A stretch of 64,000 nt of DNA from Sphingomonas edaphi (GTDB taxonomy: Bacteria > Pseudomonadota > Alphaproteobacteria > Sphingomonadales > Sphingomonadaceae). The first letter of the stretch is position 1. Each line of letters starts with the position of its first letter. Made by a program: the position numbers and the translations under genes. Positions 14,391-19,450 of this stretch are shown here, one piece after another. The notes under the pieces were generated by a model. The model was not told the DNA's origin. It did no database searches and saw nothing but the letters and a program-made list of their open reading frames with translations. The DNA lies in NCBI RefSeq assembly GCF_003583725.1, contig NZ_QXTF01000001.1, positions 1,240,001-1,304,000 on the forward strand. Reading direction: 5' to 3'.

Positions 14391-15350
14391 ATGATGCGGG
14401 AAGCGGTGCGGCTGGGCGATAGCGCACGCGGCCGTACCGCGCCAAATCCCAATGTTGGCTGCCTCATCGTCAAGGACGGCGAGATTGTCGGACGCGGCGC
14501 AACCGGCGACGGAGGCCGCCCGCATGCCGAAGCTGTCGCGATCGCCGACGCCGGCGATAACGCAAGGGGCGCAACACTCTATGTCACGCTCGAACCCTGC
14601 GCTCATGCGAGCGAACGCGGGCCAACTTGTTCGACGCTCATCCCCGCAGCTGGCATCGCCCGCGTTGTAGCCGCGATGCGCGATCCGGATCCGCGCACGG
14701 CAGGAAAGGGCTTCGCTGCCCTTCGCAGCGCGGGCGTGGATGTTCGGACGGGCGTCGCGAATAGGGCAGCGCGCGTCAGCATGGCCGGCTATCTCAGCCG
14801 GATCGAACGCGGACGTCCGCGCATCACACTCAAACTCGCCCTGTCGATCGACGGGAAGATCGCGCTTCCGTCTGGCGAGTCCAAGTGGATCACGGGAGAA
14901 GACGCGCGTGCCCATGTTCACTTAGAACGTGCGCACAGCGACATGATCCTGGTCGGGCGGGGAACCTATCTCGCCGATGCCCCCCGTCTCGACGTTCGGC
15001 TCCCCGGACTGGAAGGGCATTCGCCGCGACGGGCCCTTTTGACCCGGGGCGAAGCTGTGGCTGGCTGGGAAACCCTGTCTTCTCCGCAGGATGTTTACCG
15101 GCTTCATGACGTCAACGACCTGCTGGTCGAGGGCGGCTCCGCCACCGCGACGGCCTTTCTTGCCGCCGACCTGGTCGACCGCATCCTGATCTATCGAGCA
15201 CCGATTCTCGTCGGGGAAGGAAAGTCGAGCCTTGGCTATATCGGGCTTGACGCGATTGCCGATGCGCACGGCCGCTGGCGGATCGGCAGCGGCGCGCACC
15301 TTGGCATCGACCGCCTCGAAGTATACGAGCGCGACCGCGAAGGGGATTAG
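14391..15350 (+). CDS. ribD: Riboflavin biosynthesis deaminase/reductase
   Basis: 319 residues. The N-terminal deaminase has TAPNPNVGC, the zinc ligands PHAEAVAI and EPCAHASERGPTC, and catalyses the second step after RibA. The C-terminal reductase starts LKLALSIDGKIALPSGES and has LVGRGTYLADAPRL. The linker and reductase are slightly short. ATG 14391 gives MMREAVRLGDSARGRTAP; an in-frame TTG at 14376 (LSDASMM) is a good alternative that would overlap the previous gene and match the usual RibD N terminus. First gene of ribD-ribE-ribBX-ribH. Confidence 0.93.
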   Translation: MMREAVRLGDSARGRTAPNPNVGCLIVKDGEIVGRGATGDGGRPHAEAVAIADAGDNARGATLYVTLEPCAHASERGPTCSTLIPAAGIARVVAAMRDPDPRTAGKGFAALRSAGVDVRTGVANRAARVSMAGYLSRIERGRPRITLKLALSIDGKIALPSGESKWITGEDARAHVHLERAHSDMILVGRGTYLADAPRLDVRLPGLEGHSPRRALLTRGEAVAGWETLSSPQDVYRLHDVNDLLVEGGSATATAFLAADLVDRILIYRAPILVGEGKSSLGYIGLDAIADAHGRWRIGSGAHLGIDRLEVYERDREGD

Positions 15351-15352
15351 CT

Positions 15353-15952
15353 TTGTTCACCGGCATCGTCACCGACATCGGCACCATCCGATCGCAGGAG
15401 AAGCGCGGCGACGTACGCCTGACGATCGGCTGCTCATATGACCTGTCCGGGGTCGACCTTGGCGCTTCGATCTCCTGTTCGGGCGCGTGTCTGACGGTCG
15501 TCGACAAGGGGCCGGGCTGGTTTGCGGTCGATGTCAGCCACGAAACACTGTCCCGCACCGCACCGCGCTGGTCGGCAGGGTCGCGCCTCAATCTCGAACG
15601 CGCGCTTCGCCTCGGCGACGAGCTTGGCGGCCACCTGGTCACTGGCCATGTCGATGCCGTCGGAACCGTCGTCGGCACTTGCCCGGACGGCGACTCGACG
15701 CGAATTGGAGTCAGTGTCCCCGCCGACCTCGGCAAAATGATTGCAGCCAAGGGTTCGGTCACCATCGACGGCGTCTCTCTGACCATCAACGAAGTGCGCG
15801 ACCTCGATGGCGCCACGCATTTCGCGGTGAACATTATTCCCCATACTGCTAGCCACACTACGTTGGGATCGCTCGAGGAGGGCGACGCGGTAAATGTAGA
15901 GATCGATGTGCTGGCACGCTACTTGGAGCGGATGACCAACCGCCCAGTGTGA
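15353..15952 (+). CDS. ribE: Riboflavin synthase, alpha subunit type
   Basis: 199 residues starting MFTGIVTDIGTI from a TTG codon two bases after ribD. The two barrel repeats are visible: LGASISCSGACLTVVD in the first half and the matching TVDG-like block GSVTIDGVSLTINEV in the second, each with the lumazine-binding pattern, plus GGHLVTGHVDAVG. It dismutates two 6,7-dimethyl-8-ribityllumazine molecules into riboflavin. Tight spacing shows co-transcription with ribD. Confidence 0.95.
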   Translation: MFTGIVTDIGTIRSQEKRGDVRLTIGCSYDLSGVDLGASISCSGACLTVVDKGPGWFAVDVSHETLSRTAPRWSAGSRLNLERALRLGDELGGHLVTGHVDAVGTVVGTCPDGDSTRIGVSVPADLGKMIAAKGSVTIDGVSLTINEVRDLDGATHFAVNIIPHTASHTTLGSLEEGDAVNVEIDVLARYLERMTNRPV

Positions 15953-15969
15953 TTTTTGACATTGGCGAT

Positions 15970-15985
15970 TCACATTGCGATGTGA
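15970..15985. promoter_or_regulatory. Perfect palindrome upstream of ribBX; candidate operator
   Basis: TCACATTGCGATGTGA has perfect 6-bp arms (TCACAT/ATGTGA) around TGCG. It ends 12 bp before the ribBX ATG and lies 8 bp after a consensus-like TTGACA (15956-15961), so it would overlap the -10/start region of a promoter internal to the rib operon. The downstream protein has an N-terminal helix-turn-helix, making autoregulation plausible. The -10 element is not clear. Confidence 0.55.
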
Positions 15986-15997
15986 TAGCGGCGCTGC

Positions 15998-17284
15998 ATG
16001 TCCACCACCCTCATCGAGCGACTCACTGCTCTCGTCGACAGCGGGGAGGCTAGCCGAAGCGGCCTAGCCCGCGCGGCCGGCCTTCACCCCAACTCGCTTC
16101 GTAAGCTTGGCGCGTCCGACTGGAATCCCACGGCCGACACTCTCGTGCGGCTAGAGAAACTGCTGGACGGCGGCGTTCAGGACGTGCTCGTCGGCGCCGA
16201 GACGATTATCGACGAGGCGCGCAACGGCCGCATGTTCATCCTCGTCGACGATGATGACCGTGAAAACGAGGGCGACCTCGTTGTCCCGGCTCAGATGGCA
16301 ACGCCCGACGCGATCAACTTCATGGCCCGCCACGGACGCGGTCTGATCTGCCTTGCACTCGGCAAGGATCGGGTGGACCAGCTCGGGCTGGAACCGATGG
16401 CCCGCCAGAACCGGACTCGGATGGAAACCGCCTTCACCGTCTCCATCGAGGCGCGCGACGGCGTTACTACAGGAATTAGTGCCGCCGACCGCGCGCGGAC
16501 GATCGCGGTGGCGATCGACGCCAACAACGGGCCGGATGCGATCGTCTCGCCGGGCCATGTTTTCCCGTTGGTAGCCCGCCCGGGCGGCGTGCTGGTTCGC
16601 GCTGGCCATACCGAAGCGGCGGTCGACGTCGCTCGGCTGGCCGGCCTCAATCCGTCCGGCGTGATCTGCGAAATCATGCGTGAGGACGGGACGATGGCCC
16701 GGCTCGATGACCTGATGGACTTCGCGCGTACTCACGGCCTTAAGATTGGGACGATCCGCGACCTCATCGCGTACCGCCTTAAGAAGGATCATATGGTCGA
16801 GCGCGTCGCAGAGACGCGCTTCACCGCCCGCTCCGGGGCCGCCTGGACTGCCCAGGTATTCCGCGACAAGGCCAGCGGCGAGGAGCAGCTAGCGCTGGTT
16901 CATGGTGCGATAGACCCGGCCCGTCCGACGCTGGTGCGCATGCATTCGATCGATCTTTTCGCCGACCTGCTGGGCGAAGCCAGCGCGCGCGCTGGCTTGC
17001 TTGACGGCGCGATGCGGATGATTGAGGCGGACGGCTCGGGTGTCATCGTGGCGCTCCATGCCGCCGCGCCCGGATCGCTCAGTCGGGCGACCGACATGCG
17101 GTCGGGGAAGGGTAGCGAAGCCAGTCCTGCCCTTCGCGGTTACGGGATCGGCGCGCAGATCCTGGCGGCGCTCGGCATTCACGACATGATCCTGCTTTCC
17201 AATACGCGCCATTCCCCCGTCGGGCTCAGCGCCTACGGCTTGGCCATCGTCGAAGAACGCTGCATCATCTCCTCGGAGTCCTGA
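15998..17284 (+). CDS. ribB: HTH-RibB-RibX: DHBP synthase with N-terminal HTH and degenerate RibA-like domain
   Basis: 428 residues in three parts. Residues 1-58 form a helix-turn-helix (ASRSGLARAAGLHPNSLRKL, then PTADTLVRLEKLL). Residues about 62-262 are 3,4-dihydroxy-2-butanone-4-phosphate synthase, with the acidic motif DDDDRENEGD (84-93), HGRGLICLAL and HTEAAVDVARLAGL. Residues about 268-428 have the GTP cyclohydrolase II fold, but the zinc motif is replaced: RMHSIDLFADLLGEASARAG has none of the three cysteines. This is the RibBX type, in which the RibA-like half is catalytically dead. It makes the four-carbon unit for lumazine. The HTH fusion suggests a regulatory role (see palindrome at 15970). 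ribH follows 4 bp later. Confidence 0.93.
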   Translation: MSTTLIERLTALVDSGEASRSGLARAAGLHPNSLRKLGASDWNPTADTLVRLEKLLDGGVQDVLVGAETIIDEARNGRMFILVDDDDRENEGDLVVPAQMATPDAINFMARHGRGLICLALGKDRVDQLGLEPMARQNRTRMETAFTVSIEARDGVTTGISAADRARTIAVAIDANNGPDAIVSPGHVFPLVARPGGVLVRAGHTEAAVDVARLAGLNPSGVICEIMREDGTMARLDDLMDFARTHGLKIGTIRDLIAYRLKKDHMVERVAETRFTARSGAAWTAQVFRDKASGEEQLALVHGAIDPARPTLVRMHSIDLFADLLGEASARAGLLDGAMRMIEADGSGVIVALHAAAPGSLSRATDMRSGKGSEASPALRGYGIGAQILAALGIHDMILLSNTRHSPVGLSAYGLAIVEERCIISSES

Positions 17285-17287
17285 CCC

Positions 17288-17707
17288 TTGGCCCACGTCC
17301 TGATCGCCGAAGCGCGCTTCTACGCGCACCTCAACGACATGCTTCTAGCCGGTGCGCGGGCCGCGTTGGACAGGGCCGGTCATTCGCACGAAACGGTGAC
17401 GGTTCCCGGCGCTCTCGAATTGCCGGGCGTGATCGCGCTCGCGGCTGAAAGCGGGCGCTTCGACGCATTTGTCGCGTTGGGCGTCGTCATTCGCGGCGAG
17501 ACCTATCATTTCGAAATCGTTGCCGGGGAAAGCGCTCGTGGCCTGATGGCCTTGACGATGGATGGCCTTGCCGTCGGCAACGGCATCCTGACGGTAGAGA
17601 ATGAGGCGCAGGCTATCGTCCGTGCCGACGCCTCACAGGGCGACAAGGGCGGTGATGCGGCGGAGGCCGCGCTGGCGCTGCTCGCCCTTCGCGGCCGTTT
17701 CAGCTGA
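17288..17707 (+). CDS. ribH: 6,7-dimethyl-8-ribityllumazine synthase
   Basis: 139 residues, TTG start four bases after ribBX. It shows [13 protein letters not shown], the catalytic-His motif [14 protein letters not shown], and [13 protein letters not shown], all typical of lumazine synthase. The protein joins the RibB and RibD products. It ends the rib operon; its TGA lies in the 8-bp palindrome TCAGCTGA shared with the stop of the convergent SOUL gene. Confidence 0.94.
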
Positions 17708-18329
17708 GCGGCAGCCACACTTCGTTGCGGCGCAGCGGACCGGGAATCATCGGCGAATTGTAGAAGGCATATTCCGGCGCGGCCTCGACCGCCTCGCCGC
17801 GCCGAGCGAGCCAGCCGCGAAGCCGGTCCTCCTGCTCGGCTAACAACTTGTCATCGGCGAATCCGGGGAACGTCACGACGGCAACCTTGCGCGGCGGGAT
17901 TTCGACCAGTTCGACACCAGCCGGCGGTTCCGGAAGATCTGCAGCGTCGCGTCCGGCAGGCATGACGAAGCGGGTGCGCCACGCGCCCTCCAATTCATCG
18001 TCGAACAAGGGTGGATCGCTCGCCATCGGGTCGCCCCCGTCCTGCATAACGGGCACGGTCATCGCCAGCTTCTCGCCATTGCGCGACTTCGCGAAGATAT
18101 AGTCGGCGAGCACCCGGAAGCCGCGCCCAAGCGCATCCCTGCGCGGGCCTTCGATGACGGTTTCCGCGACCGTCACGGCCGGATAGTCGCGAATCTGGTA
18201 GTCGCCGTCGCTGGTTAGCGCGCGATAATCGGGTTCCTCAGTCTGCTTTTCGCGGAAATAATAGAAAGCCGCGCCACCGATGAGTGCCACGCCGATAGCT
18301 GCCGCGCCCGCCAACACTTCCTTCCGCAT
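17700..18329 (-). CDS. SOUL-family heme-binding protein
   Basis: 209 residues. An N-terminal membrane or signal segment ([20 protein letters not shown]) is followed by the SOUL fold: [49 protein letters not shown], and a C-terminal [19 protein letters not shown]. Such proteins bind heme or related tetrapyrroles; the physiological role in bacteria is unclear. ATG 18329 is supported by AAGGAGG 8 bases upstream. It follows the OYE gene by 32 bp on the same strand. Confidence 0.88.
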
Positions 18330-18361
18330 GCCTGCATCCTCCTTGCGGGAGGACGAACCGG

Positions 18362-19450
18362 TCAAGCGGCTTCCTGTTCCTCTAATCGAGGATAATCCGT
18401 GTAGCCTTCTGGGCCTTGCGAGTAGAATGTCTTCACATGCCACTCGTTCAAGGGCGCGTCCTGACGAATCCGCTCTACCAGGTCGGGATTGGCGAGGAAG
18501 GGCCGGCCGAAGCTGATCGCATCGGCGATGCCGTCATCTAACTTCGCTTGCGCGCTGGTGCCATCATAGTCGCTATTGAGGACCAGCTTGCCGGAAAAAA
18601 CCTTGCGGATTGCCGGGCTGACTGGCGCTTCGTCGGTCGCGCGGAACGTCGAATGCGGTCCGGGCTCGCGGAGCTCGAGCCAAGGCACACCGAGCTTTTC
18701 CAGTTCGATCGCCGCCGCAGTGAACAGGGCGAAATTGTCGCTGTCGTTGCAGCCCTGCACGTCTCCATTGGGCGAAAAGCGGATTGCGGTCCGCTGGACG
18801 CCCGCCTCGGCCTGGACCGCCATGACCACGTCGCGCATAAAGCGCAGGCGGTTGGCGATGGCCCCGCCATAATCGTCGTCGCGCAGGTTGGTCCCGTCGC
18901 GCATGAATTGGTCGATCAGGTAACCGTTCGCGCCATGGATCTGGACCCCGTCGAAGCCGGCAGCGACCGCGTTTCGCGCAGCGGCAGAATAGTCGCCGAC
19001 AATCCGTTCGATATCGGCGAGGGTAGCGCCATAGGCCGTCGGATAAGCTTGCTTGCCCTCATAGGTATGGGCGTAGTCCGGGGCCTGCGTCGCGGATGCG
19101 CTGATGTTACGCATGCCGCTGACATTGTCGTGGACCAGCCGGCCCATGTGCCACAGCTGTGCGACAATCCGCCCGCCAGCGCGGTGCACCGCCTCGACCA
19201 CCGGCTTCCAGCCTTCGACCTGCGCGTCCGACCACAGGCCGGGAGCATAGGGCCAGCCCAGCCCTTCGCGGCTGATGCCGGTCGCCTCGCTGATGATTAG
19301 CCCGGCGGTAGCCCGCTGTGCATAATAATCGGCCATCAGCGGCGTCGGTACAGCGTCCTTCGTCGCGCGGCCGCGCGTTAGCGGGGCCATCAGGATGCGG
19401 TTAGGAAGCTTGATCGCCCCCATCTCGACCGGGTCGAACAGCGTGGGCAT
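18362..19450 (-). CDS. Old yellow enzyme family NADH:flavin oxidoreductase
   Basis: 362 residues, a TIM barrel with FMN. Motifs: the N-terminal LPNRILMAPLTRGRA, GLIISEATGIS, the active-site HGANGYLIDQFMRDGTN (His-Ala-Asn pair), and the C-terminal phosphate-binding AISFGRPFLANPDLVER. It resembles NemA/xenobiotic reductases that reduce activated alkenes and nitro compounds. Full length. Probably the first gene of a two-gene unit with the SOUL protein. Confidence 0.92.
   Translation of the reverse strand: MPTLFDPVEMGAIKLPNRILMAPLTRGRATKDAVPTPLMADYYAQRATAGLIISEATGISREGLGWPYAPGLWSDAQVEGWKPVVEAVHRAGGRIVAQLWHMGRLVHDNVSGMRNISASATQAPDYAHTYEGKQAYPTAYGATLADIERIVGDYSAAARNAVAAGFDGVQIHGANGYLIDQFMRDGTNLRDDDYGGAIANRLRFMRDVVMAVQAEAGVQRTAIRFSPNGDVQGCNDSDNFALFTAAAIELEKLGVPWLELREPGPHSTFRATDEAPVSPAIRKVFSGKLVLNSDYDGTSAQAKLDDGIADAISFGRPFLANPDLVERIRQDAPLNEWHVKTFYSQGPEGYTDYPRLEEQEAA

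Follow-up and report, generated by a model that had tools for sequence, protein, structure and literature searches.

The window, i.e., the whole stretch of 64,000 nucleotides of Sphingomonas edaphi that was analysed, contains a cluster of riboflavin biosynthesis genes in which the gene between ribE and ribH encodes an enzyme with an additional N-terminal helix-turn-helix (HTH) domain of the Cro/C1 type, followed by RibB and RibX (Table 1). The downstream ribH is probably co-transcribed with this HTH-RibBX gene, and a standalone RibA is encoded just left of the window. Besides RENEGD, the RibB motif GHTEA is found in 115/115 HTH-bearing relatives and [ST]PGH[IV]FPL in 110/115. RibX has the fold of GTP cyclohydrolase II; the motif CX10CXC, present in the separate RibA, is absent from RibX in 115/115 relatives, and RibX is predicted to be a dead GTP cyclohydrolase II domain. 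On the opposite strand beside ribH a SOUL heme-binding protein and an NADH:flavin oxidoreductase of the old yellow enzyme type are encoded (18362-19450 and 17703-18443, minus strand), the latter being a possible flavin consumer.

Table 1. Features of the riboflavin locus, with positions counted from the first letter of the window.
Feature	Position	Strand	Basis
ribD	14391..15350	+	PF01872 2e-32, PF00383 4.3e-17; start codon inferred
ribE, riboflavin synthase	15353..15952	+	PF00677 4.7e-45; 45 bp upstream of the HTH-RibB-RibX gene
Half-site GTGTGA, possible remnant of a second operator	15947..15952	+	overlaps the ribE stop codon
TTGACA	15956..15961	+	sequence; probably not the -35 element in use
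TTGGCG, likely -35 element	15962..15967	+	family alignment, 8 bp before the palindrome
Candidate operator TCACATTGCGATGTGA, -35/-10 spacer	15970..15985	.	sequence and family comparison
TAGCGG, putative -10-like element	15986..15991	+	family columns after the palindrome
HTH-RibB-RibX gene, 428 aa	15998..17284	+	ORF and Pfam
Cro/C1-type HTH domain, residues 1-58	15998..16171	+	family profile, Pfam, model
Recognition-helix region GLHPNSLRK, residues 28-36	16079..16105	+	6/9 positions invariant (39 aligned members)
RibB domain, residues 68-259	16199..16774	+	PF00926 6.2e-84; RENEGD in 115/115 relatives
RibX domain, residues 268-420	16799..17257	+	PF00925 2.7e-30; without zinc cysteines
ribH, lumazine synthase	17288..17707	+	PF00885 1.8e-40

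The candidate operator TCACATTGCGATGTGA is of the type TCACAT-N4-ATGTGA and ends 12 bases before the ATG of the HTH-RibBX gene. An earlier note on this DNA had named the HTH-bearing reading frame, a perfect palindrome at its promoter and an adjacent TTGACA, and all of these elements were found at the positions it gave. The palindrome is not perfect, as it is symmetric at 14 of 16 positions: the six-base arms are exact, the inner pair T7/G10 is unmatched and the reverse complement differs at two positions. In the entire genome of 2.37 Mb these arms occur once and the control pattern, read backward, does not occur. Across 113 HTH loci the consensus is aTCACATTnnAATGTGATa, and in this consensus the symmetry reaches the centre, with matched pairs at positions 6/11 and 7/10 (the inner TT/AA) in 89 and 67 of the 113 loci, respectively. 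In the same 113 loci the two columns right after the palindrome contain T (72%) and A (69%). Not every locus shows a consensus promoter: TA follows the palindrome directly in 61/115 HTH loci and TTG is found 6-8 bp before it in 65/115 (-6 in 27, -7 in 26 and -8 in 12). With TTG before and TA after it, the palindrome would occupy the spacer between the -35 and -10 elements. TTGACA is visible next to the palindrome, but it is probably not the -35 element, because in the window the family peak of TTG coincides with the position of TTGGCG. The first in-frame start is most commonly located 12-13 bp past the palindrome (53/115), suggesting that the mRNA is leaderless; if it starts near the ATG, as is probable, there would be no leader to hold a riboswitch.

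The HTH at residues 1-58, which the earlier note regarded as unexpected on a metabolic enzyme, is real. A profile built from the N-termini of the family was used to define its presence, giving 89-110 bits in 115 loci and less than 1 bit or nothing in the others. The window protein alone matches Pfam HTH_3 with an E of 0.03, which is below threshold, and a search with 39 members at E up to 1 identified HTH_26 in 25 and HTH_3 in 23 of them (best E 5.9e-5). In the 39 aligned members 13 HTH positions are invariant, and the WNP that follows residues 28-36 is invariant as well. The HTH was modelled by AlphaFold with a pLDDT of 84, and SinR, CapH, DdrO, C.AhdI and P22 c2 are in the top PDB ranks of Foldseek. 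For the short HTH model the ten top hits are all HTH repressors or controller proteins with probabilities of 0.97-0.99 and weak E values (best 0.15). A comparison of the HTH sequence profile with solved structures yielded no confident match.

For the family survey 149 genomes of the family of the window (sphingomonads) were sampled, of which 146 had a match to the protein, and 150 RibBX loci from 144 of these 146 genomes were taken among the matches listed. Outside these loci are G010 and G090 with weak RibBX matches only, G025, G067 and G135 with no match, and further paralogue matches. The HTH is present in 115/150 RibBX loci, the 35 HTH-less loci originating from 33 genomes. The earlier note had suggested to compare the palindrome upstream of ribBX in sphingomonads with and without the HTH. 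This comparison revealed a site with at most two mismatches in 12 positions before 113/115 HTH genes and before 0/35 HTH-less genes. The best upstream site has 0 (61 loci), 1 (36), 2 (16) or 3 (2) mismatches in the HTH loci, 4-6 in 35/35 HTH-less loci and 3-6 in 20/20 outgroup loci of the same order outside the family. Letter-shuffled upstream sequences reached at most two mismatches in 21/3400 and exactly three in 224/3400 cases, and the reversed control pattern had three mismatches at best (4/150 loci). Of the two HTH loci with three mismatches, G131 contains the symmetric variant CCACAC..GTGTGA and the site of G033 is doubtful, because three mismatches fall within the chance level of the shuffled sequences.

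Exact arms were found in 63/149 family genomes and the control pattern in 0/149. Of 66 exact sites 61 stand before ribBX, and among the five elsewhere only that in a prophage of G017, close to a free-standing HTH, made sense when read. A wider regulon was considered and rejected, as each of eight genomes contained only 1-3 sites with at most one mismatch (control: 0 in seven genomes, 1 in one). The genomes G085, G122, G127 and G133 carry both kinds of RibBX, and in all four the site precedes the HTH copy and is absent before the HTH-less one (a broken match in the case of G122); together with the 35 HTH-less loci these four genomes constitute natural controls. All 12 named HTH-bearing loci possess the site, at least two of them belonging to the same sample of 149 genomes, and the named holders of HTH and site include Sphingomonas daechungensis, Blastomonas, Sphingopyxis, Novosphingobium, Porphyrobacter and Allopontixanthobacter. 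Some family genomes (G017, G122, G127, G133 and G085) contain two or three RibBX copies, at most one of which has the HTH. In G145, a genome of the same genus, an exact TCACAT-N4-ATGTGA is located just past an enolase-like gene, named by eye, and is followed by ATCGATGTGA (L350, 2002-2017); the same motif pair is found in G103 downstream of ribH-like and aldo/keto reductase-like genes (L352, 2501).

Phylogenetic analysis was performed with FastTree on 169 RibBX cores, the HTH being left out and L177, a broken match, being dropped. On this tree the HTH state changes at least six times on well-supported branches (ten times on the best tree). Over 200 pairings with six independent pairs, the site and the HTH change in the same direction in a mean of 6.0 pairs and in opposite directions in 0; the median p is 0.031 with a range to 0.125, and in some of the pairings the site differs in only 4-5 of the six pairs. 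The RibBX tree cannot tell HTH gain from loss; a single fusion followed by losses is presumed here in preference to repeated gain. Within the stretch fetched, ribE is found upstream in 39/115 HTH loci vs. 25/35 HTH-less and 18/20 outgroup loci; a rarer upstream ribE in HTH loci would be anticipated had the HTH form arrived together with a promoter of its own. In the same order outside the family RibBX is present, yet neither HTH nor site was found in the 20 loci examined, and class-wide samples, which include few family members, contained no clear HTH-RibBX outside the family. Rhodospirillales proteins were considered as HTH-RibBX candidates and rejected: among the matches listed, theirs reach the HTH region and have no HTH by profile.

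Searching the 149 genomes with the HTH profile revealed three strong free-standing copies, in G017, G021 and G036. The G017 protein is encoded in a prophage with primase, terminase and portal genes and was also found on an IMG/VR contig. Immediately upstream of the ATG of this HTH gene there are two sites with one mismatch each, and another tandem pair is located 2.8 kb away. In G021 and G036, GCATAT-N4-ATATGC is found at the same place before the HTH's own ATG; the G021 protein is also encoded on a viral contig (L382), and the G036 protein (L375) was not found on a viral contig. Further free-standing HTHs were identified on viral contigs and in the Pseudanabaena phage Pan3. Among 12 protein-found viral loci, a palindrome exactly 29 bp before the ATG has 6/6 matched pairs in six loci and 5/6 in four, of which two are identical modules; of the remaining two loci one has 4/6 pairs and one (L398) none. 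Of random windows taken from the same loci, 2.6% hold a 6-of-6 palindrome at any position within 73 nt. A pattern of the DNA layout only retrieved 14 viral stretches, nine of which encode this HTH at the ATG (six known, three new); four of the five stretches without HTH share one sequence. More distant HTH relatives have no palindrome at this place (L383-L386, i.e., 4/10 loci, and L398, 1/12), and a free HTH of other alphaproteobacteria has none at -29 (L403, n = 1). In phage Pan3 the 62-residue HTH reading frame (L376, ON968454.1, 3001-3189) is preceded by a perfect 6-4-6 palindrome; it lies on the strand opposite two annotated hypothetical genes and appears to have been missed in annotation.

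In the free-standing modules TTG precedes the palindrome by 7 bp, and a second operator-like site is found 31 bp upstream in most of them. In 61/115 HTH-RibBX loci an additional half-site, ATGTGA or GTGTGA, is found 17-26 bp before the palindrome, and among 59 RibBX loci that have the right half of an upstream second site, the left half is recognisable with at most two mismatches in 8. The half-site before ribBX may be a remnant of a second phage-type operator. An HTH tree of 54 rows (39 of the 115 RibBX and 15 free-standing modules) and 60 columns separates the RibBX from the free-standing kind by a single branch (support 88). The direction of transfer is not given by this tree; a transfer from phage to host is presumed here.

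The residue after the motif N(S/T)L, which is Arg35 in the window, is Arg and is accompanied by C-G at operator positions 4/13 in 115/115 RibBX. In the protein-found free-standing modules (n = 12) R or Q goes with C-G in 3/3 (operators of type ACACAT or TCACAT), and L, Y or N goes with T-A in 9/9 (GCATAT type). These 12 modules, which include L375 of G036, are taken from a table of 15 distinct ones that leaves out L398 and duplicate proteins; L415, L421 and L424, found by operator pattern, were not counted. The pattern is as would be expected if the residue after N(S/T)L reads the pair 4/13, few ancestral changes underlying it, and Arg35 is a candidate specificity residue. A covariation of HTH column 22 with the outer operator pair within RibBX (z 9.2) was rejected, because it was not upheld on the tree (median p 0.69).

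In accordance with the earlier note no FMN riboswitch was found in the window (RF00050, 0 matches). It was likewise detected in 0/149 family genomes with strict filters, which may lose weak matches and returned 7/14 positive controls. Within the order 16/118 genomes have the riboswitch, i.e., 0/35 family members and 16/83 others. In sister families, judged by coordinates, a second copy consisting of RibB only follows the riboswitch at a distance of a few hundred bases in 10 of the 16 riboswitch genomes (among them G233:C24, G227:C32, G164:C11 and G216:C22), and the riboswitch was not seen near RibBX in the sister-family genomes of the order. The suggestion that the HTH acts in place of the riboswitch is compatible with its absence from the family; however, HTH-less members lack the riboswitch too, so the HTH is not the sole way to live without it.

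Based on these data it is highly probable that HTH-RibBX combines the functions of an enzyme and of a transcriptional repressor of its own gene, i.e., a phage-type autorepressor cassette fused to RibB and RibX. Binding of the enzyme to its own promoter, as proposed in the earlier note, receives strong support from the comparison of HTH-bearing and HTH-less loci, from the joint change of HTH and site on the tree and from the phage layout, and very probably the HTH domain recognises the palindrome inside the gene's own promoter. As RibB forms homodimers, two Cro/C1-type HTHs would be present per enzyme dimer and could bind the palindrome halves TCACAT and ATGTGA. As the palindrome is predicted to fill the -35/-10 spacer of the ribBX(-ribH) promoter, the bound enzyme would exclude RNA polymerase. 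HTH-RibBX thereby most likely switches off its own production, the expected effect being repression rather than activation, and negative autoregulation would keep the ribBX output at a set level. Promoter, operator and HTH would together represent the whole autorepressor cassette of a small phage-type repressor, fused before ribBX within the family. This fusion is new relative to the earlier note. It is moderately probable, in our view, that an entire phage cassette has been domesticated to serve a vitamin B2 enzyme as its autoregulatory front end and has been retained in most family members.

The preponderance of ribBX among the exact sites would fit any single-target regulator, and the palindrome might accordingly belong to another protein, the HTH serving protein contact or an unrelated target. 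This is very unlikely, as six independent comparisons show a joint change of site and HTH, the site is confined to the HTH copy in the four genomes with both kinds (one of the HTH-less copies being broken), free-standing phage relatives without RibBX show the same operator layout, and the 13 invariant HTH positions speak against it as well. A role of the palindrome as an RNA hairpin in the leader or in translational control is even less credible, although the arms can pair and are found at the distance from the first in-frame start given above. The symmetry, which extends to the inner TT/AA, leaves two bases in the middle of the site and no room for a loop; such symmetry fits a protein dimer on DNA and not a hairpin. 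Moreover, the flanking TTG and TA elements would put the palindrome upstream of the transcript, and the presence of the palindrome tracks the DNA-binding domain rather than the enzyme itself.

Autorepression by HTH-RibBX could in addition be gated by a ligand, the RibX domain or the RibB active site sensing flavin, GTP or ribulose 5-phosphate and altering operator binding. This would be an extension of the autorepressor explanation rather than an alternative, and we put it forward as a tentative possibility that falls somewhat short of probable. RibX is a candidate sensor, because it has lost the zinc cysteines of the GTP cyclohydrolase II fold and because, in the part of the source consulted, RibX of Shewanella is reported to regulate RibB (PMC10012899). 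The absence of a detected FMN riboswitch from the 149 family genomes is in line with such gating. HTH-less relatives, also without riboswitch, keep RibX as well, so RibX is not specific to the regulator. Furthermore, since the same operator (of TCACAT or ACACAT type) has been retained in some phages, HTH-RibBX might also silence phages that share it, the vitamin enzyme doubling as immunity repressor. This appears unlikely. G017, the only family genome in which a prophage repressor of the TCACAT type was found, has no HTH in either of the two RibBX copies examined.

BirA, NadR and PutA combine enzyme and repressor in one chain and act on their own pathway. They share this architecture with HTH-RibBX and differ in folds and pathways, and we know of no phage-type cassette in them. 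As in BirA, an operator-like site in the own promoter, the latter predicted from sequence, goes with the DNA-binding domain in HTH-RibBX. Cro/C1-type (Xre) repressors bind short palindromic operators and are autoregulated; P22 c2, SinR and C.AhdI, to which the HTH model is similar with weak E values, are stand-alone proteins, whereas the HTH is fused to an enzyme here. In RbkR of archaea, which Rodionova and colleagues are said to have described in 2017, an HTH is reportedly joined to riboflavin kinase, so that RbkR differs from HTH-RibBX in enzyme and lineage. In the part of the source consulted, the HTH regulators wBmxR1 and wBmxR2 of Wolbachia are reported to bind the ribA promoter and to activate a ribA reporter (PMC3518464); this is also an HTH at a riboflavin gene in an alphaproteobacterium, but these are separate, unfused proteins. 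RibBX itself was described as RibB joined to a GTP cyclohydrolase II-like domain (Brutinel et al., 2013, as cited in the consulted part of PMC10012899). Like the window protein it has this domain without zinc cysteines and a separate RibA in the genome. The RibBX structure 6mnz (Acinetobacter baumannii, by its title) matches from residue 67 on, without the HTH; HTH and operator are extra here. Among titles and abstract beginnings of the open-access literature searched, none dealt with an HTH fused to RibB or with a TCACAT-N4-ATGTGA operator, and in the portions of recent reviews of riboflavin regulation that were covered the terms RbkR, helix-turn, Sphingo and autoregulat do not occur.

The palindrome offers a directly testable candidate operator. 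If the proposed mechanism holds true, HTH-RibBX would represent a bacterial enzyme of riboflavin synthesis acting as its own repressor, and the fusion of a phage-type repressor cassette to a metabolic gene would point to a way in which a trans-acting domain can be transferred along with its cis-acting site. For the sphingomonads this would provide a candidate answer to how riboflavin synthesis is controlled in a family without a detected FMN riboswitch.
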